Below are positions 3,178 to 35,951 of a stretch of DNA of 64,000 bases, piece after piece. The stretch lies in assembly GCA_001725155.1 (NCBI GenBank), contig MEFP01000008.1, forward strand, positions 1 through 64,000, given 5' to 3'. The notes under the pieces are model-generated. The model was not told the origin of the DNA. It did not search any database and saw only the letters and a program-made list of their open reading frames with translations. Source of the stretch: Lysobacteraceae bacterium SCN 69-320 (lineage in GTDB: Bacteria; Pseudomonadota; Gammaproteobacteria; Xanthomonadales; Rhodanobacteraceae). The first letter of the stretch is position 1. Each line of letters starts with the position of its first letter. Both the position numbers and the translations under genes were made by a program.

Positions 3178-5379
3178 TCAGTTCTTGACTCCTCTGCACT
3201 GGGGAAAGCGCGAGCAGCCCCAAAAGAAGCTCCCGGCGCGAGAGCCTTTGCGGGCTTGGCGCCGAACCATGACCGCGCTGCACACTGGACAAGTTGGGGT
3301 GGATGGCGGCGCGGGAGAGTTCCAAGCGGGCAAAGACGGTACCGCAAGGGAGGTGGGGCCGGGAGGCCGCGCCGGCGGCATCGGTGCCGGCGGCGCGGGC
3401 GTTGGGACAGAAAGCTTGAGGGCGCCGGGTGGCGGCACCTTGACGCCCACCGTGGCGCAATCTCGCGCCGCGCGTGCACGGTCGGACAGCGCCTGCGCCA
3501 ACGCGGGTGCCGGAGACGCTTTGCCGCTGGCGAACCTCGACGGTGCGGTCTGCAGTGCGGCCAGCCCGGCTCGAAGTTTGTCCTGCAACTGGATACGTTT
3601 GCTGGCAGCCGCGGACCTCAACGCGTCTTCGGCTTGCCGTTCCGTTGGATCCGGCGCAGGGTTGTACCTGAACTTTGCTTCCTGCTCGCCGCGCCACTTG
3701 AGCAATTTCTGAGTCAGCGCTTCCCCGAATCCGGGCACAGCCATGACCTTGGCGAAATCGACGTCCGCGGCTGATTCGATCCCGAAAGACGCCAGCGCCG
3801 CCATCTTGGCCTGACCAATGCCGGATATCTTCACCCGACGCAGCAGGCAACGATCCAGGAAGGCGTGCAGTTGCCGACCCTTCCGGTTCGCCTGCAGGTT
3901 CGCCAGATCGCGGGAAAGTTTGCCTTCCACCTGGGGATACTCTGCGATGCAGTTCTCCAACTCGTTGCGCAGCACCAGCAGTTCGGTGAACCCGACCCGT
4001 TGAAGATGCGCCAGAGAGGCCGCCCGTACGCGGTTGTCGGCTTCGCTGTAGGCCTTCAGCAACGGCGAGGCGTCGAACGTTGCGGTGCCGATTCGGAACA
4101 GGCCTATCACGGCGAGAACAACGCCGAAGACTGCGCCGGCTCCCCCGTTGGCGAAGCCGACCAGGGCCGCCAGGATGAGCAGCCCGCCAAACAGTCGGGC
4201 AAAGGTCTGCTTGGTTCTGGCAGCGGTGAGCGCCGGGAGTGCAGGGCCCGGATCGCCAGTCCAAACGGGAACCACGTCTTCAGGACGGGGAAGCGTTGCC
4301 GCACGAATGGCGGCGGCGATCGCGCCGAAGTCAAATGGGCCACTCGGCACTTCGGGGCGGCGGGCGACCCACGAATCGAGGCTCGGGGGGAACATGTCCA
4401 CGCCCGACTGGCTGACGATGCGGCACCACGGACAGCTTTGCGCGGAATGCGGGAAGTAGTGGGTGGGCGCAGAACCGCAGCGACGCAGGCTGGTTTTCAG
4501 CTGCTCCAGAAGGTGAACCCACGTGGCCGGGCTCGGGCGCGCGTCGGGATCGAGGCCGAACGCCGCCTCGAAGGCCGATGCGACCGGCGGAGGGAAATCG
4601 CTGAGTTGTACCGACGCCGGCGGTGGCGTCGTCCGGGTTGCGCTCTGCCGCACCGTGGAGTAGGCGAAGCGGTGCTGCGCGATGGCTTGCCCTAGCGAAA
4701 GGTCCGCACCGCTGTAGCGACCCATGTACGGATGCTTGCCCATGGCCAGCAACTGAAAGATCACCACCGCCAATCCAAAGTTGTCGTGCGCGTGCGTGCG
4801 CTCGACGCGGCTCAGCTCCTTGCCGTGAAGTTCCGGAGGCGTGAAGTCTTCGGTGCCCACCACGCACGGGTAGGCGCGGCCGTTCGCGGTGAACTGAAAA
4901 CTGTCCGCGTCGATTAGCGTGACGGTGGCGTTGTTGGCTACGAGCACGCCCGAATGATTGAAGTCCCCGATGACGCAGTCGGTTTGATGTACCGTCGCCA
5001 CCGCGCGCGCGGCGTTCTGGGCAGCTTGGACCAGAAAGCGGTAGTCGGCCTGCGGAAACTGGATCTTTCGAGATTTGGGGCTGTACAGCTCGTGGATGGG
5101 CCGGTATCCCGACACCAGCCGCATCGCAAAGCCGGCGAACGCGCCCGACCCGTCGGTGGCCAGCGCGGTCGGGAACGCGACGAGCGTGGTGCGTTCCGCG
5201 AGCCGGCTCTCGACCATGGCGCGCACTTTTCCTTCGCGCGACGATCGGATCGCCTCTTTGTAGATCTTCACAGCGAGGCCGGCTTGCTCGGGCAGGGCGT
5301 ACACGTCGCCTTCCCCTCCACGGCCAAGAGGTTTCCCGAGGGCCGTGCGCTTTCCGGCGATCTGAACGGAACCGCTCAT
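3178..5379 (-). CDS. TerY-P triad protein kinase with HhH and topoisomerase-type zinc finger
   Basis: This 733-aa predicted Ser/Thr kinase is the third gene of a vWA/PP2C/kinase triad. It has a G-loop GRGGEGDVY (~residues 18-26) and the ATP Lys in AVKIYK. The catalytic loop is altered (VIGDFNHSGVLV in place of HRDLKPxN), and the metal motif reads DADSF instead of DFG. A Cys/His cluster ending SCPWC (~325) is followed by two hydrophobic segments (~395-430), a helix-hairpin-helix region (ISGIGQAKMAALASFGI...VPGFGEALTQKLL, ~515-560) and a C-terminal topoisomerase-I-type C4 zinc finger (CPVCSAVMVRRQ...WGCSRFPQC). The chosen ATG overlaps the phosphatase stop as ATGA, so longer frames upstream are rejected. 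The family is known from Ter-linked stress systems and phage defence. The substrate is unknown. Confidence 0.85.
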   Translation of the reverse strand: MSGSVQIAGKRTALGKPLGRGGEGDVYALPEQAGLAVKIYKEAIRSSREGKVRAMVESRLAERTTLVAFPTALATDGSGAFAGFAMRLVSGYRPIHELYSPKSRKIQFPQADYRFLVQAAQNAARAVATVHQTDCVIGDFNHSGVLVANNATVTLIDADSFQFTANGRAYPCVVGTEDFTPPELHGKELSRVERTHAHDNFGLAVVIFQLLAMGKHPYMGRYSGADLSLGQAIAQHRFAYSTVRQSATRTTPPPASVQLSDFPPPVASAFEAAFGLDPDARPSPATWVHLLEQLKTSLRRCGSAPTHYFPHSAQSCPWCRIVSQSGVDMFPPSLDSWVARRPEVPSGPFDFGAIAAAIRAATLPRPEDVVPVWTGDPGPALPALTAARTKQTFARLFGGLLILAALVGFANGGAGAVFGVVLAVIGLFRIGTATFDASPLLKAYSEADNRVRAASLAHLQRVGFTELLVLRNELENCIAEYPQVEGKLSRDLANLQANRKGRQLHAFLDRCLLRRVKISGIGQAKMAALASFGIESAADVDFAKVMAVPGFGEALTQKLLKWRGEQEAKFRYNPAPDPTERQAEDALRSAAASKRIQLQDKLRAGLAALQTAPSRFASGKASPAPALAQALSDRARAARDCATVGVKVPPPGALKLSVPTPAPPAPMPPARPPGPTSLAVPSLPAWNSPAPPSTPTCPVCSAVMVRRQARKGSRAGSFFWGCSRFPQCRGVKN

Positions 5380-6146
5380 CGGCCCGAAATCAGAATCAGC
5401 GTCTTGTCGTCGTCGGTGCGCTCGCACAGCTTGGGGCCGTCGAGGTACCGGCCCAGTGCTTCGGAGAGAGCCACCAGGCACCCGGCGCTCGGTGCGTCGT
5501 CAACGGCTTTGAGCATCGGGTTGAAGAAGCGAGCGTAAGGCTGCTGGGTTTCGTGTTCGAGCGCGACGGATTCCAGCCCGTCGGAGAACAACGCGAAGGC
5601 GTCGTGTTCCAGCGGGCGCCGAACGACATGCAGTCTAGCTTCCGGATCGTCGGTGACGAAGTAAGTGGTCGAGGCGAATTCGCCGTTCTCCGGCCAACAC
5701 AACGCCTCCCAGTTCCCGTCGTACCTTCGGCCCACCAGTGCGCTGTCGCCGATCTGCAACGTCATCACCTGGTCGTCGAACACCACCAGCACGACCAAGG
5801 TTGCGGCAAATTGACGGCGCGTGAGTTCGCGCCTCGCAGCGGCTAGGTTCAACTGATCGCGCAAGTCGTCCAGCCAGTCCTTGACCGTTTCGCCGTCGGG
5901 GAGGCAATCGTTCTCGGAAAACCACCTGCGGAATGCCGACAGGAAGTGGCGGCAAACCACGGACGCACCTTCGCCGCCGTGGCTGGCGCTTCCAGCGCCG
6001 TCCGACACGATTGCACAAAGCGAGCGGGCGCCCCCGCGGACGCCGTAGGCGTCTTGCTTTCGGGTGCCGAGCCGCTGATGGGAGGTGCCGATGCGCGACG
6101 CAGAGGCCCATCGCCAGCGGCGATCAGCCTGCAACGGCCCACCCAT
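5376..6146 (-). CDS. PP2C-family Ser/Thr phosphatase of the TerY-P triad
   Basis: This 256-aa metal-dependent phosphatase presumably opposes the kinase encoded just downstream. Its PP2C motifs are QDAYG near the N-terminus, [17 protein letters not shown] (metal-binding Asp-Gly), FSDGLES, and a C-terminal DDDKTLILI (distal Asp). I chose the ATG at 6146 ([11 protein letters not shown]) because the upstream extension only re-reads vWA coding sequence. This start overlaps the vWA gene by 23 nt, and the stop overlaps the kinase start, so the three genes look translationally coupled. An exact start a few codons further in is possible. Confidence 0.85.
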
Positions 6147-6801
6147 CCGGTGCTGCGGGATTGGGCAAAGCTGGCGTGTCGCCCGGATTGGATTGCGAAA
6201 CCGCGCTGAGCGAGCTGGACAGCCACGCGAAGAGCTCACGGAACGCCAGACCTTTCAATTTCAGAGGTTGCCGGACGGCAAGCTGAGCCAGCGTAGACAG
6301 GTCGGCACCCTCCACACCCACCGCGAAAAACATGAACTCTTTGCGTTCTTCACCTGCATGAACTTGGCGGCGCGCCTCGACCCAACTGTCCGTCGGCGCC
6401 CCATCCGTGATCAGGAAGACCCACGGCCGGTAGTATTTGATTCCATTGGCGCGGTAGCGGTTCTTGCGCTCGCGCAGCAGTTCCAGGGCACGAACCACCG
6501 CTTCGCCCATCGGTGTGCTGCCGTTGGCTTCGAGCATCTCGGGGTAAAAGCCGTCCACCGTCGTGAAGTCGGATCGGAGGCTGACGGGGCCGAACGTCAT
6601 GACGGCGAGTTCCACGCGCTTGGCGGCCAAAGCATCGGCGTGGAGATCCTCCTTGAAAAACTGCAAGCCGTCGTTGAGTTGCCGGATCGGCTCGCCGCGC
6701 ATCGACGCCGAGGTGTCCAGCAGGAGTACGACCGGGCACCGTTGTTCGGGATTCTCGGCGAACTCAGCGTCGGCAAACGGTTGCTGTTCAAAGCTCTCCA
6801 T
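6124..6801 (-). CDS. terY: TerY-like von Willebrand factor A domain protein
   Basis: This 225-aa vWA protein opens the triad operon. The MIDAS residues are visible: DTSASMRG (DxSxS, Asp29), the Thr of GSTPMGEA, and the Asp of LITDGAPTD. It is a cytoplasmic protein with no signal peptide. AGAGGGA-type Shine-Dalgarno bases (agaggga) lie about 6 nt before the ATG at 6801, which supports this start over an upstream one. In known TerY-P systems the vWA protein is thought to be a scaffold or ligand sensor for the kinase/phosphatase pair. Genes of this type in mobile islands have been linked to anti-phage defence. Confidence 0.85.
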
Positions 6802-7158: not shown

Positions 7159-7530
7159 TCAACCGTTCTGGTCGGGTTTCGATCGCGTTCGCTGCTGTAT
7201 CAGCTCTGCGATGCCGGAAAGAACGGTCTGCAATGCCGCCGCTGCCGACGGGTCGTCGCCGGACAGTTGGACCACCAGGCGTGCGAGATCGGCCGGCGAC
7301 GCACCCGACTCCGGCTCGTGGCTGTCTAAACCGGCATATCGGCATAACGCGCTTATCGGGGCCGTAAGTCGTTTACGCTTGCCTCGCAACGCGCGGCTGA
7401 TCTGGGGTTGGGGAACCCCGGTTTCCCTTGCTACGTCAAGCTGCGTGTGTCCGAGAGCCTTCATTCGCGCCAGCAGCGCGGCGGGCAACCGTCCGAGTTC
7501 TGGATGTGGTGTGGAAATCTTTACAGGCAT
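7159..7530 (-). CDS. XRE-family HTH regulator, divergent from the OGG-like gene
   Basis: This 123-aa protein has a Cro/C1-type helix-turn-helix at about residues 20-60 (GHTQLDVARETGVPQPQISRALRGKRKRL). A C-terminal helical region (LARLVVQLSGDDPSAAAALQTVLSGI) probably serves for dimerisation. The start used is MPVKISTPHPELG. An in-frame start up to 39 nt further upstream cannot be excluded, and no clear ribosome-binding site precedes either. The gene is divergent from the OGG-like gene across a short AT-rich gap (about 7531-7588), so it probably autoregulates and controls that gene. Confidence 0.75.
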   Translation of the reverse strand: MPVKISTPHPELGRLPAALLARMKALGHTQLDVARETGVPQPQISRALRGKRKRLTAPISALCRYAGLDSHEPESGASPADLARLVVQLSGDDPSAAAALQTVLSGIAELIQQRTRSKPDQNG

Positions 7531-7588
7531 ATAAGCATAAAATACACTGATTTTCAGCCCCATTTCCAATCAGGCGCCTTCGAATTCC

Positions 7589-8440
7589 ATGAGCCCCCAA
7601 GTCGCCAGCGTGTATACCGGAAGCATCGGCGTGAGCCTGGAGCTGCCTCCGGCCGACGCCGAAGTGGTCCCGGGCGTTCGGTGGGGCGCGGTGGAGGCGT
7701 TTCCGACTCCGGCATATTGGGCCTATCAAGTCTTCGCACGGCGGTTGGAAAACCGAGTGGTCCGCTACAAGCTTGGGAGCACGCTTCGCGAGGAACTTGG
7801 CGCTTGCTTGCTGGGTGGGCACGGCATCCCCGCCAAAGTCGGGGTCGGAGCCTTTCGCCATTTGCGATCGAAGGGGGCTTTCGAGGGAGCGCCATCCGAG
7901 GCCTGTCTGTTGGCCTGGTTGTCCGAACCGTTGGACGTGGAGGGGCGCGCGGTTCGATACCGTTTTGCGGGGCAGAAGGCCAAGTATCTGGCCGGTACGC
8001 TGGCCGCCCTCAACGAGGGCGAATTACGCGGCTTGAGCGGTGTTCAACTGCGGAACCGGCTGGTTGGTCTCCCGGGGGTGGGTTACAAGACCGCATCATG
8101 GGTCGCCAGGAACTGGCTGGACGCGGACGACGTCGCCATCCTGGACATCCACATCTTGAGGGCGGGGGTCATCGCTGGGTTTCTGGACTCCGACCTGACG
8201 GTGGAGCGGCACTACCTGGAGCTGGAACAGCAATTCCTGAGGTTCAGCACCGGCCTGGGGGTTCGCGCATCGGAGTTGGACGCCCTCATCTGGCTGGAGA
8301 TGATGTCCGCGCCGCGTTCGGTGAGCAGCGTTCTGAGCGCCCTGCCAGACAGCCGATTCAAGTCGCGGCACGCGCCGCTAAAGCGGCGCGCCAACAATGG
8401 CCACGCCGACGCCATGCAGCTCGCCTTGCTCGTTCAATGA
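7589..8440 (+). CDS. OGG-like HhH DNA glycosylase/AP lyase
   Basis: This 283-aa protein has the HhH-GPD core of the 8-oxoguanine glycosylase superfamily. LVGLPGVGYKTASWVARNW carries the Lys nucleophile position, and AILDIHILRAG the catalytic Asp, at about residues 158-195, so it looks catalytically competent. The N-terminal half lacks a recognisable OGG1 N-domain. OGG-like enzymes also occur as accessory genes of type IV CBASS beside QueC-like genes, and here too a QueC-like gene lies close by. The 3' end overlaps the nitroreductase gene tail-to-tail by 63 nt. The substrate (oxidised or deaza-modified guanine in DNA or nucleotides) is inferred. Confidence 0.75.
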   Translation: MSPQVASVYTGSIGVSLELPPADAEVVPGVRWGAVEAFPTPAYWAYQVFARRLENRVVRYKLGSTLREELGACLLGGHGIPAKVGVGAFRHLRSKGAFEGAPSEACLLAWLSEPLDVEGRAVRYRFAGQKAKYLAGTLAALNEGELRGLSGVQLRNRLVGLPGVGYKTASWVARNWLDADDVAILDIHILRAGVIAGFLDSDLTVERHYLELEQQFLRFSTGLGVRASELDALIWLEMMSAPRSVSSVLSALPDSRFKSRHAPLKRRANNGHADAMQLALLVQ

Positions 8441-9022
8441 GGCCGCAGCGGCACTTCCTGTGAGACCCAGGAAGCAGAGGCTCAGGCCGGCGCGAGGGGC
8501 CACCAGCGCCAAACTGCCCTGTAATACGCCCGCGTCCCGCCAGACCAAACTCTCTGGGTTTTCGTACTTGGCCGCCGTCATCCCGAGTTCCGCGACGAAA
8601 AAAAGCAGGCAGCCATCGCCCGGGGCTACGTACTCCGCTGCGATGGCGCGCAGGCCGGGCAGCGCCCCCGGTTCGGCGAGGAACTCCAGCCGATGGGTTT
8701 TCGGATCGTATCGCGCCCACGCGCGATCCCGCGGGTGTTCGAGCAAAATGTGGATGGGGTGGATCGCGCCAGCTGACGGCGTTGGTCGCAGTTGAAGGTC
8801 GAAGCCCAGGGGCGAGGACGACGTCTCCTCGCACCGTGCGGTGTGCCAGAGCAGCGTACTCAACGCACCCAGGCTCGGCACAGCGAATGCGCGCTGCGAG
8901 CGTCGCTCCAACACATCTGCGAGAGGGCTTGGGAACGGCAGCTGCTCGCCGTGCCGAGATGGCCAGAGGCACGGGGCATGCGGGTTCGGTGTACCTCGAA
9001 CTCGTGGTTCACGGAAGTCCAT
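8378..9022 (-). CDS. SagB-like nitroreductase-family protein
   Basis: This 214-aa protein belongs to the FMN-dependent nitroreductase/SagB-type dehydrogenase fold. The typical stretch ADVLERRSQRAF near residue 35 is followed by RPTPSAGAIHPIHI (FMN-binding loop of SagB/ThcOx enzymes). The C-terminal region is WRDAGVLQGSLALVAPRAGLS...LGLTG. It is the last gene of the four-gene operon, and its ATG at 9022 overlaps the QueC-like gene by 14 nt. No azoline-peptide precursor or SagC/SagD partner is nearby, so its oxidation or reduction substrate may be linked to the deazapurine chemistry suggested by its neighbours. Confidence 0.75.
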   Translation of the reverse strand: MDFREPRVRGTPNPHAPCLWPSRHGEQLPFPSPLADVLERRSQRAFAVPSLGALSTLLWHTARCEETSSSPLGFDLQLRPTPSAGAIHPIHILLEHPRDRAWARYDPKTHRLEFLAEPGALPGLRAIAAEYVAPGDGCLLFFVAELGMTAAKYENPESLVWRDAGVLQGSLALVAPRAGLSLCFLGLTGSAAAASLNEQGELHGVGVAIVGAPL

Positions 9023-9614
9023 AGAAGCCGCCCCCAAGCTGTTCGAGAACCTCGTGGTGCTTGTAGCAGCCGCGGCACGCGCAGCAGGGGTAGTTTGCTT
9101 TGTGGCAACTGTGGGCCCAGGCCATCAGCCCGGCGGGAACCTTGCTCTGCCTGATGAGCTGCTCGGTGCTCAAATGGATTGCGGGGGCGTCGACCGTCAG
9201 TCGGCCTTCCTGGTGCTCCATCAGAGAACTGATTAGCTGCAAGAATTCCGGTGTGCCGTCGAGGTGCGTGGCGTCGCTGGCCACGGTTCCGATCAAGAGC
9301 CGGTTGCACGAGTGCTTCAGCGCGCACGCCCCGGCAAGCGTGATGAGCAGTTGGTTTCGAAAGGGCCACCAATCACTCGCTGGCGCTTCCGGCAGCGCGG
9401 TGCTGCCCGCGAGGTCCCCGGAGCCCAGCGCGCTCGCGTCCACGCGAAGAACGTGATGCGCAATTCCCAGCGCTCCGCAAGCTGCAGCCGATGCCGCGAT
9501 TTCGGCAGCTGCAGGCCGTTGGCCGTAATCGATGGTGATGGCGAGGTCCGGCTTACGCCACCACAACAGCGCGATGGAATCCATTCCTCCAGAGAGCAGC
9601 AGCGCGGATCTCAC
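9009..9614 (-). CDS. QueC-like 7-deazaguanine synthase homologue
   Basis: This 201-aa N-type ATP pyrophosphatase is related to QueC (CDG to preQ0). The PP-loop is SGGMDS at residues 8-13, then IDYGQRP, WPFRNQLL (QueC PGRN position), GTVASDATHLDGTPEF, APAIHLSTEQLIRQ, and a zinc site built from HSCHKANYPCCACRGC. A GTG at 9614 overlaps the previous stop as GTGA, which gives a compact start just before the PP-loop. The longer ATG frame (9668) would re-read 58 nt of the preceding gene. No queD/queE/queF genes are near. QueC-like proteins in type IV CBASS and Qat systems act in defence, and this one is probably of that kind rather than in queuosine synthesis. Confidence 0.85.
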   Translation of the reverse strand: MRSALLLSGGMDSIALLWWRKPDLAITIDYGQRPAAAEIAASAAACGALGIAHHVLRVDASALGSGDLAGSTALPEAPASDWWPFRNQLLITLAGACALKHSCNRLLIGTVASDATHLDGTPEFLQLISSLMEHQEGRLTVDAPAIHLSTEQLIRQSKVPAGLMAWAHSCHKANYPCCACRGCYKHHEVLEQLGGGFYGLP

Positions 9615-10828
9615 AAAGCGACGCCGATCCAGGCCGCGCGGTAAACGGAGCTGACGAAATCTTTGCACATGAAGCAGTCGGAACCTTCCATCATCTTGAG
9701 GTCCTCGCCCGATTCGTTCTCCGCATAAACCACAACCGGCAGGCCCAGCGCGCGCGCGTAGCCGACCTCGTACACCGTCCCCGAATCGAGGCCGTCCGCG
9801 ATGGCGTACATGAGGTCGCAGTCGTGAATGGCTTTCAGGTCAAGCGGTACCACGCGAGCTGCGTCGCCCGGGCCGACGTCGTGGTAGGGCGAGAACACGT
9901 CGAGGCCCATGTCGGTCAGATGATGTCGCGCCTGTTCCACCATCCAAATCTGTCCCAGCGTGAAGAAGGGGCCGGCCAGGTAGACCTTCGCTCGGTAGCC
10001 AGCGGACCACCGCGGGCCTTGCTTCAACGGGGCGGGGTGGAACGTGTTGAGATCGTTCAGCGAAGGGAACAATTGTCTCTCGCAATAGAAAGCAGTCGCT
10101 TGAGATGCGCGAGCGGCCGCATCGGCGGCGCTCAAGCCCCTGACCATCCATGCATGCGCGAAATGAGCAACGAACTGATCCCCTGAGCCCACTTTGGAAA
10201 CATGGCTCGTCTCAAACGTGGGGATTGTCGTGACGACGCCGTTCTCAAGCACCAAGGCTCCGCGCGGACCACGCTTCAGCACCACGGCATCGGCTTTTTC
10301 CAAATCCATGACCGCACGTGCTTTGTCCTGTGCCGCGACGGGAGCGTCTGCACCGAGCAGGGCCGACGCTTCGGTTTCGTTGAGCACGATCGCCAAGTGA
10401 TCCGCGCGCGAGCCGTTCGCCCTGAAGCGTTCGGGCTTGTGGGAGGTTTGAGGGTCGTACACGGCGCGGTGCGCGTGTACTACGGCAGTGCCTTCGATCA
10501 TGCCGTACCGAAGCACGCAATCGTCCTTTACCTGCAGTGGTTCAGGACTGGTGGCAGGTCTGCGAAACGACGGCGTATCCAATCCGTGCATGTAGCGAAA
10601 GGAGACGCCGCGGGGGATGCTCACGGGCTTCCATGTGAAGCCGTACTGCACCGCACGACCGCGCATCGTTTCGTCGGTTAGAGCGTCCGCGAAACCGACC
10701 AGGTTGACCGTCGTGCCGAGAGCCGCCATCGAACACGCGGCTCTGCCAGCGGACCCGTAAACTTCATCCGACGGTCGCCAGATGATTCTTTCGCGGTAAA
10801 CACCACCCACAATCGTGAGGGAAGCCAT
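9611..10828 (-). CDS. PfkB-family kinase fused to nucleoside 2-deoxyribosyltransferase
   Basis: This 405-aa protein has two domains. Residues 1 to ~270 are a PfkB/ribokinase-like fold (GSAGRAACSMAALG near the N-terminus; VGSGDQFVAHFAHAW retains the catalytic Asp of the GAGD motif). Residues ~285-405 are a nucleoside 2-deoxyribosyltransferase (KVYLAGPFFTLGQ, then ADGLDSGTVYEVGYA with the catalytic Glu). Such fusions point to salvage or exchange of a base on a (deoxy)nucleoside with phosphorylation. The gene starts 10 nt after the Gly-rich gene behind a GGGAGA site. It ends in a GTGA overlap with the QueC-like gene, so it is a middle member of one operon. Confidence 0.85.
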   Translation of the reverse strand: MASLTIVGGVYRERIIWRPSDEVYGSAGRAACSMAALGTTVNLVGFADALTDETMRGRAVQYGFTWKPVSIPRGVSFRYMHGLDTPSFRRPATSPEPLQVKDDCVLRYGMIEGTAVVHAHRAVYDPQTSHKPERFRANGSRADHLAIVLNETEASALLGADAPVAAQDKARAVMDLEKADAVVLKRGPRGALVLENGVVTTIPTFETSHVSKVGSGDQFVAHFAHAWMVRGLSAADAAARASQATAFYCERQLFPSLNDLNTFHPAPLKQGPRWSAGYRAKVYLAGPFFTLGQIWMVEQARHHLTDMGLDVFSPYHDVGPGDAARVVPLDLKAIHDCDLMYAIADGLDSGTVYEVGYARALGLPVVVYAENESGEDLKMMEGSDCFMCKDFVSSVYRAAWIGVAL

Positions 10829-10838
10829 TGCTGTCTCC

Positions 10839-11168
10839 CTAGATGATGTTCGGCGTGATGCGAACTCGGACTACGTTGCCCGCCCGTTTGTCGATGACGG
10901 TCGCCGAGTAAGACGTGCCGGCACGAATGCATTCGCGCAGGCGAGTGGCCTTCGGCGACACCAGTCCGCCGATTTCTTGCCCGCGCAGCACCAGGACGAT
11001 GGTGTCCGTCGCGCCAGGCTTCAGGGTGACGTCCAGCACGTCGCCGACCTTCACCTGCGAAATCGCTGCTTGCGGCGAGCGAATTTCGGTCTCGAACTGC
11101 AGGCGTTCGCAGGCGATGTCGTCGCCGTCGAAACTGGGGCCACCGCCCCCTCCACCGCCCCCAGACAT
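10839..11168 (-). CDS. small protein with an octaglycine N-terminus, first gene of the QueC-like operon
   Basis: This 109-aa protein begins Met-Ser followed by eight Gly, then PSFDGDDIACERLQF. The remainder looks like a compact beta-rich domain (VGDVLDVTLKPGATD, IVLVLRGQEIGGLV, RLRECIRAGTSYSATV, VVRVRITPNII). The start at 11168 is fixed by a strong AAGGAGAAGG site just upstream; an in-frame ATG 24 nt earlier lacks one. I recall similar short Gly-leader proteins but no assigned function. Its place at the head of an operon with a QueC-like enzyme, and its unstructured Gly-rich N-terminus, make it a candidate substrate or partner. That is inference. Confidence 0.7.
   Translation of the reverse strand: MSGGGGGGGGPSFDGDDIACERLQFETEIRSPQAAISQVKVGDVLDVTLKPGATDTIVLVLRGQEIGGLVSPKATRLRECIRAGTSYSATVIDKRAGNVVRVRITPNII

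Positions 11169-34731: not shown

Positions 34732-35951
<1,220 letters not shown>

Follow-up and report, generated by a model that had tools for sequence, protein, structure and literature searches.

We propose that a five-gene operon of Lysobacteraceae bacterium SCN 69-320 is a mobile and probably immune system of bacteria, its defensive role being judged from setting and distribution. The operon lies in a 64,000-nt stretch of contig MEFP01000008.1 (positions 1 to 64,000), called here the window, whose numbering applies to all coordinates given without a locus handle. It encodes a small glycine-rich leader protein, a fusion of a PfkB kinase with a nucleoside 2-deoxyribosyltransferase (PfkB-NDT), a QueC-like enzyme, a SagB-like flavin mononucleotide (FMN) oxidoreductase and an OGG-like glycosylase. 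The cassette is a real recurrent unit, found in many bacteria and, as a three-gene core, in a few archaea. In the best reading that analogy offers, its logic is akin to that of type IV CBASS and Qat, and the QueC-like enzyme would acylate the Gly-rich N-terminus of the leader with a 7-deazaguanine carboxylate. QueC-family systems that modify a partner protein are a known kind, and the operon would be a further form of it, possibly with new chemistry on top. The initial annotation of this DNA suggested that the locus was undescribed; the QueC-like/PfkB-NDT pair is in print as 'Cluster 4' of family PF06508 (Libby et al. 2026, PMC13329287), and it is for the five-gene set that the literature search, with subscription papers and most preprints outside its coverage, returned no other apparent description.

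Gene order, recurrence and setting

The genes of the locus and their immediate neighbours, each with the basis of its assignment, are:

10839..11168, minus strand: leader, 109 aa, the proposed acceptor protein; MSGGGGGGGG tail and a small domain, conserved, in which two Cys are invariant
9611..10828, minus strand: PfkB-NDT fusion, 405 aa; Pfam matches and intact catalytic residues
9009..9614, minus strand: QueC-like enzyme, 201 aa from a GTG start; PF06508 Cluster 4 signature, CH(x)5CxxCxGCxK
8378..9022, minus strand: SagB-like FMN oxidoreductase, 214 aa; sub-cut-off NCBIfam match and PDB profile search
7589..8440, plus strand, convergent: OGG-like HhH glycosylase/AP (apurinic/apyrimidinic) lyase, 283 aa; Ogg-HhH match and catalytic Lys/Asp places
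7159..7530, minus strand: XRE-family regulator; HTH_3 match, likely start ATG 7530
3178-6789, directly beyond the XRE gene: TerY-P-like triad (Zn-ribbon kinase, PP2C phosphatase, vWA protein)

All six open reading frames (ORFs) from the leader to the XRE gene stand where the initial annotation had placed them, and the couplings that it described are exact. A 10-nt gap separates the leader from PfkB-NDT, the latter overlaps the QueC-like gene by GTGA (with the GTG at 9614 as QueC-like start), and the QueC-like and SagB-like genes overlap by 14 nt. The 3' end of the SagB-like gene is overlapped for 63 nt (8378-8440) by the convergent OGG-like gene, from which the XRE gene diverges. Scans with Pfam and NCBIfam gave a QueC match at E=1.6e-23, Nuc_deoxyrib_tr at 1.6e-15 together with PfkB at 6.2e-12 within a single protein, Ogg-HhH at 1.8e-11 and HTH_3 at 7.9e-6. 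The SagB match (E=5.7e-12, 45.5 bits) lies under the NCBIfam cut-off of 78.4, and the leader of the window has zero matches in Pfam, NCBIfam and PADLOC.

Recurrence of the gene set in other genomes had been named beforehand as the refutation test, and the set does recur. Loci were gathered through the QueC-like protein, partly with the patterns [ED]WWP[YF]RN(Q) and DYGQ, so the presence of that gene and the conservation of those motifs follow from selection. A family was counted as present anywhere in the fetched stretch, and near-identical loci (e.g. L003/L055/L057/L072; L009/L010) were counted separately. Left out of the counts were L094-L108, L123 and L124 (short pieces, repeats, or the window and its second gene of the QueC family), as well as L130-L132 and L153-L156. 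Among the resulting 113 loci the tally is QueC-like 113, PfkB-NDT 110, leader 108, OGG-like 96 and SagB-like 93; the recurrent extra partners are a Dam methylase (51) and a dGTPase (24). At least 3.5 kb is available on both sides of the QueC-like gene in 100 loci. There, leader, PfkB-NDT and QueC-like occur together in 98 and all five core genes in 81, and in eight these three are the only ones present of the seven families. The order is nearly fixed, with leader, PfkB-NDT, QueC-like and SagB-like on one strand and the OGG-like gene either downstream in the opposite orientation (69 loci) or upstream in the same one (27). Found in their customary position and no more than 3 kb off are 105/108 leaders, 109/110 PfkB-NDT, 92/93 SagB-like and 94/96 OGG-like genes. 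The association is therefore beyond chance, given that five genes recur in 81 of 100 loci in a nearly constant order.

The cassette is widespread and sparse. A plasmid search returned 31 matches, 24 of them of the window's QueC-like type (43-59% identical); contigs from one genome per species gave 319 relatives, of which 79 loci were retained; and seven contigs of the viral collection IMG/VR, which may be prophages or satellites, carry the operon. In whole-genome samples the carriers numbered 5/398, 7/395, 2/240, 1/199 and 1/200 (~0.5-2%), the last four groups having been picked because each contained a known carrier. Copies are present in 22 of 5,426 E. coli genomes, and 10 of these are at least 95% identical to a Citrobacter operon. 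Phages were considered as carriers and dropped, since a phage collection yielded 15 records, all at most 30% identical. According to record titles and annotation, carriers belong to Pseudomonadota, Bacteroidota, Balneolota, Verrucomicrobiota, Spirochaetota, Campylobacterota, Acidobacteriota and Cyanobacteriota; a myxobacterial bin contributes a 4.4-kb contig with the QueC-like and SagB-like genes only, and three haloarchaeal plasmids bear the three-gene core.

Enrichment in defence islands, which the initial annotation had asked to be examined, is borne out by the surroundings of the relatives. Neighbours were ORFs within 8 kb, and PADLOC was applied at E<=1e-10 to 148 of 959 of them (one per similarity cluster, chosen by a longest-ORF picker, with the window and six near-copies left out) and to a control of 137 of 290 ORFs taken from other parts of 20 carrier genomes (20 stretches, 20 kb each). 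The neighbours matched 225 PADLOC models and the control ORFs seven, a tally of models, not of proteins, in which restriction families have many models. Among the 25 of the 225 matches listed are IetA, IetS, BrxC, type I and III methyltransferases, a CBASS cyclase, JetA, AbiEi, KwaA and GajB; in the control, mad3 alone matched seven members. A restriction-endonuclease family occurs in 6/113 loci. The settings of the operon include plasmids, viral-collection contigs and an ssb-adjacent element. In E. coli KMi029 (L153, of a river-water type) the element that carries the operon adjoins ssb and has three annotated integrase genes; it also holds a dGTPase and an ATP-dependent nuclease/UvrD-helicase pair that we read as Gabija. 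In E. coli ABWA45 (L154) two annotated integrases and a hypothetical protein stand beside ssb, in an apparent prophage, and the neighbours of the operon differ, being response regulators instead. As the two ssb-side elements carry different genes beside the operon, the pattern is that of exchangeable defence cargo, though this falls short of proving defence.

This setting bears on a different reading already in print. In Libby et al. (PMC13329287), Cluster 4 has PfkB-NDT in ~89% of its neighbourhoods and purine salvage is suggested. PfkB-NDT and the QueC-like enzyme would then make or recycle a deazapurine nucleotide, or supply a modified one, and the leader would be a regulator or carrier. 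Intact NDT and kinase sites agree with such a role, as does a VUT-family transporter in 5/113 loci. Purine salvage would not be expected in ~0.5-2% of sampled genomes, on plasmids and amid 225 PADLOC models from 148 neighbours, nor with a Gly-rich leader in 108/113 loci, an azoline-oxidase relative and a glycosylase, and we regard it as distinctly unlikely.

Not all neighbours in the window belong to the system. The kinase, PP2C and vWA genes, which we take to be the 'TerY-P triad', are indeed next door, as first described; such a triad is near the operon in just 3/113 loci, so it was rejected as a component and is regarded as a neighbour. The XRE gene is likewise real, its likely start at ATG 7530 aligning with the first Met of the L025 and L080 relatives and with an internal Met of L015, yet a regulator of this kind adjoins the operon in only 4/113 loci (L015, L025, L080 and the window). 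The island had also been described as tRNA-borne, which could not be confirmed, since ARAGORN found no tRNA anywhere in the 64-kb window. An ALIL pseudoknot (Rfam RF01497, 119.7 bits) lies at 35557-35673. A conserved ~470-aa protein is encoded near the operon in eight loci (L006, L011, L030, L042, L049, L064, L068 and L073); the L042 copy (L042:5707-7119) has no Pfam match.

The leader and the QueC-like enzyme

The leader consists of a Gly/Ser tail followed by a conserved ~85-residue domain with two invariant cysteines. M1, C20, G67 and C80 do not vary across the 70 leaders, out of 108, that were aligned, and Gly and Ser make up 65% of residues 2-13 versus 17% of the last 60 residues (105 leaders). 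The start motif, in 106 leaders, is MSG in 96, MGG in five, MTG in two and MSS, MCG or MSP in one each; a leader start was required to have S, G, C or T next, a rule that partly forces a small residue 2 and leaves the split between Ser and Gly free. The chosen start is the one annotated in the record for 12 plasmid loci (L001-L008, L011-L014). The leader profile had no match in the PDB at E<=10, and against Pfam there were scattered weak matches only (PUA_4 in 4/70 members, best 0.022; S1 in two); a HIRAN-like or OB-like fold is at most a conjecture. In position, disorder-like tail and start motif, the anatomy of the leader looks like that of a known or inferred substrate of Cap9 or QatC. The CD-NTase of a type IV CBASS-type locus, L130, starts MGGSGGG, and the N-terminus of QatB is MGTS (PMC13279940). 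The initial annotation had the new genes take the places of CD-NTase, TGT (tRNA-guanine transglycosylase), QatA and QatD; by this comparison the leader most likely replaces the modified partner (CD-NTase or QatB), not an effector.

Some leaders depart from the common arrangement. Those of the haloarchaeal loci L012, L013 and L014 apparently hold two tandem copies of the domain, as judged by eye. At L023 (~8465-8560) the leader start and the conserved domain are in different frames across a poly-G run, owing to a sequencing error or phase variation. Second leader copies occur at L114:8627-8974 and L129:2500-2841, one after the QueC-like gene and one several kb off on the other strand.

The QueC-like enzyme looks catalytically intact from its residues, as do PfkB-NDT, the OGG-like and the SagB-like enzymes. 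R86, N87, D119, the four Zn cysteines and the ATP-loop serines are kept in 113/113, and D119 corresponds in position to the Asp by which the guanine edge is read. The Cluster 4 motifs CH(x)5CxxCxGCxK, SGGxDS and YGQ...E fit the window sequence and are conserved in the alignment of 113; the window spacing, YGQ(x)5E, is one off the printed YGQ(x)6E. Where canonical enzymes have YPDC, 108/113 have HxDG. Neither queD nor queE turned up in profile scans of the six window proteins. A second gene of the QueC family, next to a QueE match, lies on contig C1 of this genome, which makes the operon's QueC-like gene an extra copy. We conclude that a deazaguanine is a likely substrate, that 7-deazaguanine-related chemistry is the best guess, and that 7-carboxy-7-deazaguanine (CDG) is not established as the specific substrate.

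Several observations count against the proposed reading. The Tyr of QueC and Cap9 that stacks on the base (PMC13279940) is replaced by His in 109/113, which leaves room for a base other than CDG. A PDB search ranks Cap9 and canonical QueC about equally (1.4e-14 and 2.6e-14), and for this reason descent from Cap9 is not demonstrated; a GSG-x-L stretch common to Cap9 (9nto) and the QueC-like family was dropped as evidence of descent, because a second Cap9-type protein (L130) is without it. A supply of CDG through QueE was also examined, in carriers from 50 of the 79 genome-contig loci plus eight genomes and two plasmid records. QueE is not enriched, at 43/50 carriers versus 121/150 genomes of the window's phylum; 7/50 carriers have no QueE match at E<=1e-8, and six of the eight further carrier genomes have one at that threshold. 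Two of the seven QueE-less carriers (L059; L050/L069) have a VUT-family gene within the fetched locus. Genes of this family, related to E. coli YhhQ, a protein reported to be tied to preQ0 transport (PMC5372724), lie adjacent to the operon or up to ~4 kb away in the five loci that have them:

L009:8308-8847, VUT-family transporter, labelled queuosine salvage in its record
L010, VUT-family transporter, on a plasmid near-identical to that of L009
L042:3580-3894, VUT-family transporter, short match
L059:3365-4012, VUT-family transporter
L069:6610-7230, VUT-family transporter

The partner enzymes and a proposed mechanism

What could a SagB-like enzyme add to an acylated leader? The best PDB relatives of its profile are CyaGox (5lq4), 8pz5 and BmdC, which we take to be azoline oxidases. 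The Tyr of the KY motif is present in 93/93 SagB-like proteins. Azole formation requires a Ser, Thr or Cys beside the acyl group, and residue 2 of the leader tracks the enzyme. Where a SagB-like gene is present, residue 2 is Ser in 87 and Thr in two rows (n=89, of 107 leaders overall); where it is missing, Ser in 12, Gly in five and Cys in one (n=18). On the PfkB-NDT tree there are eight SagB changes and four residue-2 changes, to Gly or Cys, and every Gly/Cys row is SagB-less; SagB-less branches are 31% of the tree length, giving p ~0.009 by length, computed post hoc. A few entries of the residue-2 table were set by hand: L040 was assigned to an upstream MSGSGN start, L129 was omitted, L056 has an internal start (also Ser), L023 is S from a start in another frame of the poly-G run, and L114 is S from the leader upstream of PfkB-NDT. 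Since the SagB-like enzyme resembles azoline oxidases and Ser/Thr2 tracks its presence, the association suggests an N-terminal deazaguanine-oxazole.

A number of results weigh against an oxazole. Generic nitroreductases trail closely in the profile search (3hoi at 1.3e-11 versus BmdC at 2.1e-12), McbC itself scores only 0.14, and the Lys of the KY motif is present in only 67/93. Ser2 persists in 12/18 SagB-less rows. The Fisher p of 1e-5 for SagB against Ser/Thr2 ignores kinship, an independent-pairs test (treekit) of SagB against Ser2 was not significant, with too few pairs, and the PfkB-NDT tree is a quick tree with long-branch warnings. The persistent Ser2 and the independent-pairs result are what deazaguanylation as in CBASS and Qat but without an azole would give, with Ser2 kept by descent and the SagB-like enzyme acting elsewhere, on the base or in electron transfer. 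We hold this to be possible if somewhat unlikely, given that all departures from Ser/Thr fall in SagB-less rows and that the nearest solved structures are azoline oxidases. The same kinship to azoline oxidases, together with the Ser-Gly tail, could instead point to a RiPP (ribosomally synthesized and post-translationally modified peptide) antibiotic, in which the leader would be a precursor that the QueC-like and SagB-like enzymes turn into a released toxin. Neither the genes counted as conserved nor the 30 largest neighbour clusters, as read, include a protease, an exporter or a cyclodehydratase, and the conserved part of the leader is a C-terminal domain, not a variable core peptide. A peptide antibiotic is accordingly the least probable of the alternatives, and highly improbable.

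The remaining two enzymes are PfkB-NDT and the OGG-like glycosylase. In PfkB-NDT, the kinase residue D217 is kept in 110/110 and N150 and E153 in 109/109, and the NDT residues D330 and E354 in 108/108. Distant PfkB proteins occur on 13 other plasmids, and the four examined have lost the NDT motif, so that loss of NDT is possible yet absent in this operon family. Lys and Asp occupy the places of the catalytic pair in 96/97 aligned OGG-like sequences, as in Ogg2-type glycosylase/AP lyases, and the OGG-like profile matches PDB 9o00 at 1e-17. These residues, with Dam in 51/113 and dGTPase in 24/113 loci and the six loci with a restriction-endonuclease family, also fit a DNA-modification scheme: the QueC-like enzyme and PfkB-NDT would make a 7-deaza-dG nucleotide that enters DNA, the OGG-like enzyme would excise it or the unmarked bases, and Dam would mark self. 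Among the six window proteins there is no DpdA/TGT-type DNA transglycosylase, 8/100 loci have leader, PfkB-NDT and QueC-like alone, and a leader is present in 108/113, and we consider DNA modification unlikely.

For a deazaguanylated leader, the mechanism that we propose has four steps. In the first, by analogy with type IV CBASS Cap9 and QatBC, the leader Met would be removed and the QueC-like enzyme would spend ATP on coupling CDG, or a closely related 7-deazaguanine carboxylate, to the amine of the Ser-Gly N-terminus. The second step would take place only where SagB is present. QueC itself forms an amide that a second ATP activates as an AMP-imidate (PMC13060819, citing Nelp and Bandarian 2015), and here too a second ATP would activate the new amide, as QueC does en route to preQ0. 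As the Ser hydroxyl would be within reach, the Ser/Thr side chain would attack and give an oxazoline, which the SagB-like FMN enzyme would oxidise to an oxazole. The third step would belong to PfkB-NDT, assigned to the base chemistry since it is the only other gene nearly always present and both its active sites are intact; it would act on the N-glycosidic bond and the 5' position of the base, either supplying the base from deoxynucleosides or placing a phosphorylated deoxyribose on the protein-bound base. In some loci the dGTPase would furnish deoxyguanosine to PfkB-NDT. In the fourth step the charged leader would act against invading DNA, and the OGG-like enzyme would serve as an eraser, a reader or an effector that acts on DNA.

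The main reading, a mobile, defence-type operon with an acceptor protein and a modifying enzyme at its core, has in our judgement an even chance of being right. Some parts of it are less secure. A 7-deazaguanine-oxazole hybrid built on the N-terminal Ser of the leader by the QueC-like and SagB-like enzymes, the azole cap alone, is a tentative and rather unlikely proposal. It is very unlikely that, on top of this cap, PfkB-NDT makes a dGMP analogue tethered to the protein, one that might enter phage DNA or trap it and that the OGG-like enzyme might remove. If the model is true, the partner set of an azoline-oxidase relative and a deoxyribosyltransferase-kinase gives exact, checkable mass predictions, and the 2026 purine-salvage assignment of the Cluster 4 clade would be corrected. 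The rule that a SagB-like gene goes with Ser/Thr at residue 2 offers a direct handle on possible nucleobase-azole chemistry, and the copies in E. coli genomes open the system to study in laboratory strains.

A TIR-bearing operon and comparison with known systems

A distinct operon is present on plasmids of Rhizobium, Agrobacterium and Neorhizobium, in four loci:

L131:6004-10366, TIR-bearing operon
L132:6001-10401, TIR-bearing operon
L155:4953-9364, TIR-bearing operon
L156:5001-9395, TIR-bearing operon

Its order is PfkB (with a degenerate NDT), a TIR protein, an OGG-like/DNA lyase, QueC and a small TIR protein starting MGGG. Four families are common to it and to the operon of the window, and no SagB-like gene is annotated in the four stretches. 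In L131 Pfam identifies the glycosylase as Ogg-HhH and the last protein as ThsB_TIR (9.4e-26); the first TIR protein matches TGT weakly (0.0014), under the cut-off. Residue 2 of the acceptor candidate is Gly. From its sequence, this looks like an undescribed TIR system in which QueC would modify a TIR protein, and it supports a shared logic because a Gly-rich N-terminus again adjoins a QueC-family enzyme and a base-exchange fold.

How does the operon of the window compare with what has been described? Its QueC-like enzyme belongs to the same clade as Cluster 4, with the same Cys signature and the same PfkB-NDT neighbour (110/113 loci here); the leader, the SagB-like and OGG-like genes, Dam, dGTPase and a defence setting go unmentioned for Cluster 4 in the results section of PMC13329287. 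The SagB-like enzyme shares with CyaGox and BmdC, its best PDB matches, an aligned KY Tyr, and differs in that the Lys of KY is kept in 67/93 of the family and that the six window proteins include no peptide cyclodehydratase.

Type IV CBASS combines a QueC-like enzyme (Cap9) with a partner of Gly-rich N-terminus, as in L130, and also has an OGG-like partner. In both systems the second enzyme has a base-exchange fold, TGT in type IV CBASS and NDT in the present operon, where PfkB-NDT and the SagB-like enzyme stand in place of CD-NTase and TGT. The acceptor starts mostly with MSG here and with MGG in type IV CBASS. As the initial annotation stated, CD-NTase, TGT, QatA and QatD are missing, which holds for the six window proteins in Pfam, NCBIfam and PADLOC scans: there is no CD-NTase among them, nor in the 30 largest neighbour clusters of the 113 loci, no TGT match that would indicate a TGT-like Cap10, and neither QatA (KAP NTPase) nor QatD (TatD). 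A 2025 study reported protein deazaguanylation in type IV CBASS (PMC11996544). For Qat it is inferred, the product of QatC being still open, and QatBC by itself is able to protect from some phages (PMC13279940). Like the present operon, Qat has in one operon a QueC-family enzyme and a small partner protein with a disordered Gly-motif tail. QatC is ~400 aa with N- and C-terminal extensions, whereas the window enzyme has 201 aa without them and retains the RN motif and the base-reading Asp, both reported lost in QatC by two cited papers; QatB, at 29.7 kDa, is far larger than the 109-aa leader, a comparison made without alignment. If our model is true, the operon would be a third architecture built on the deazaguanylation logic, beside type IV CBASS and Qat.

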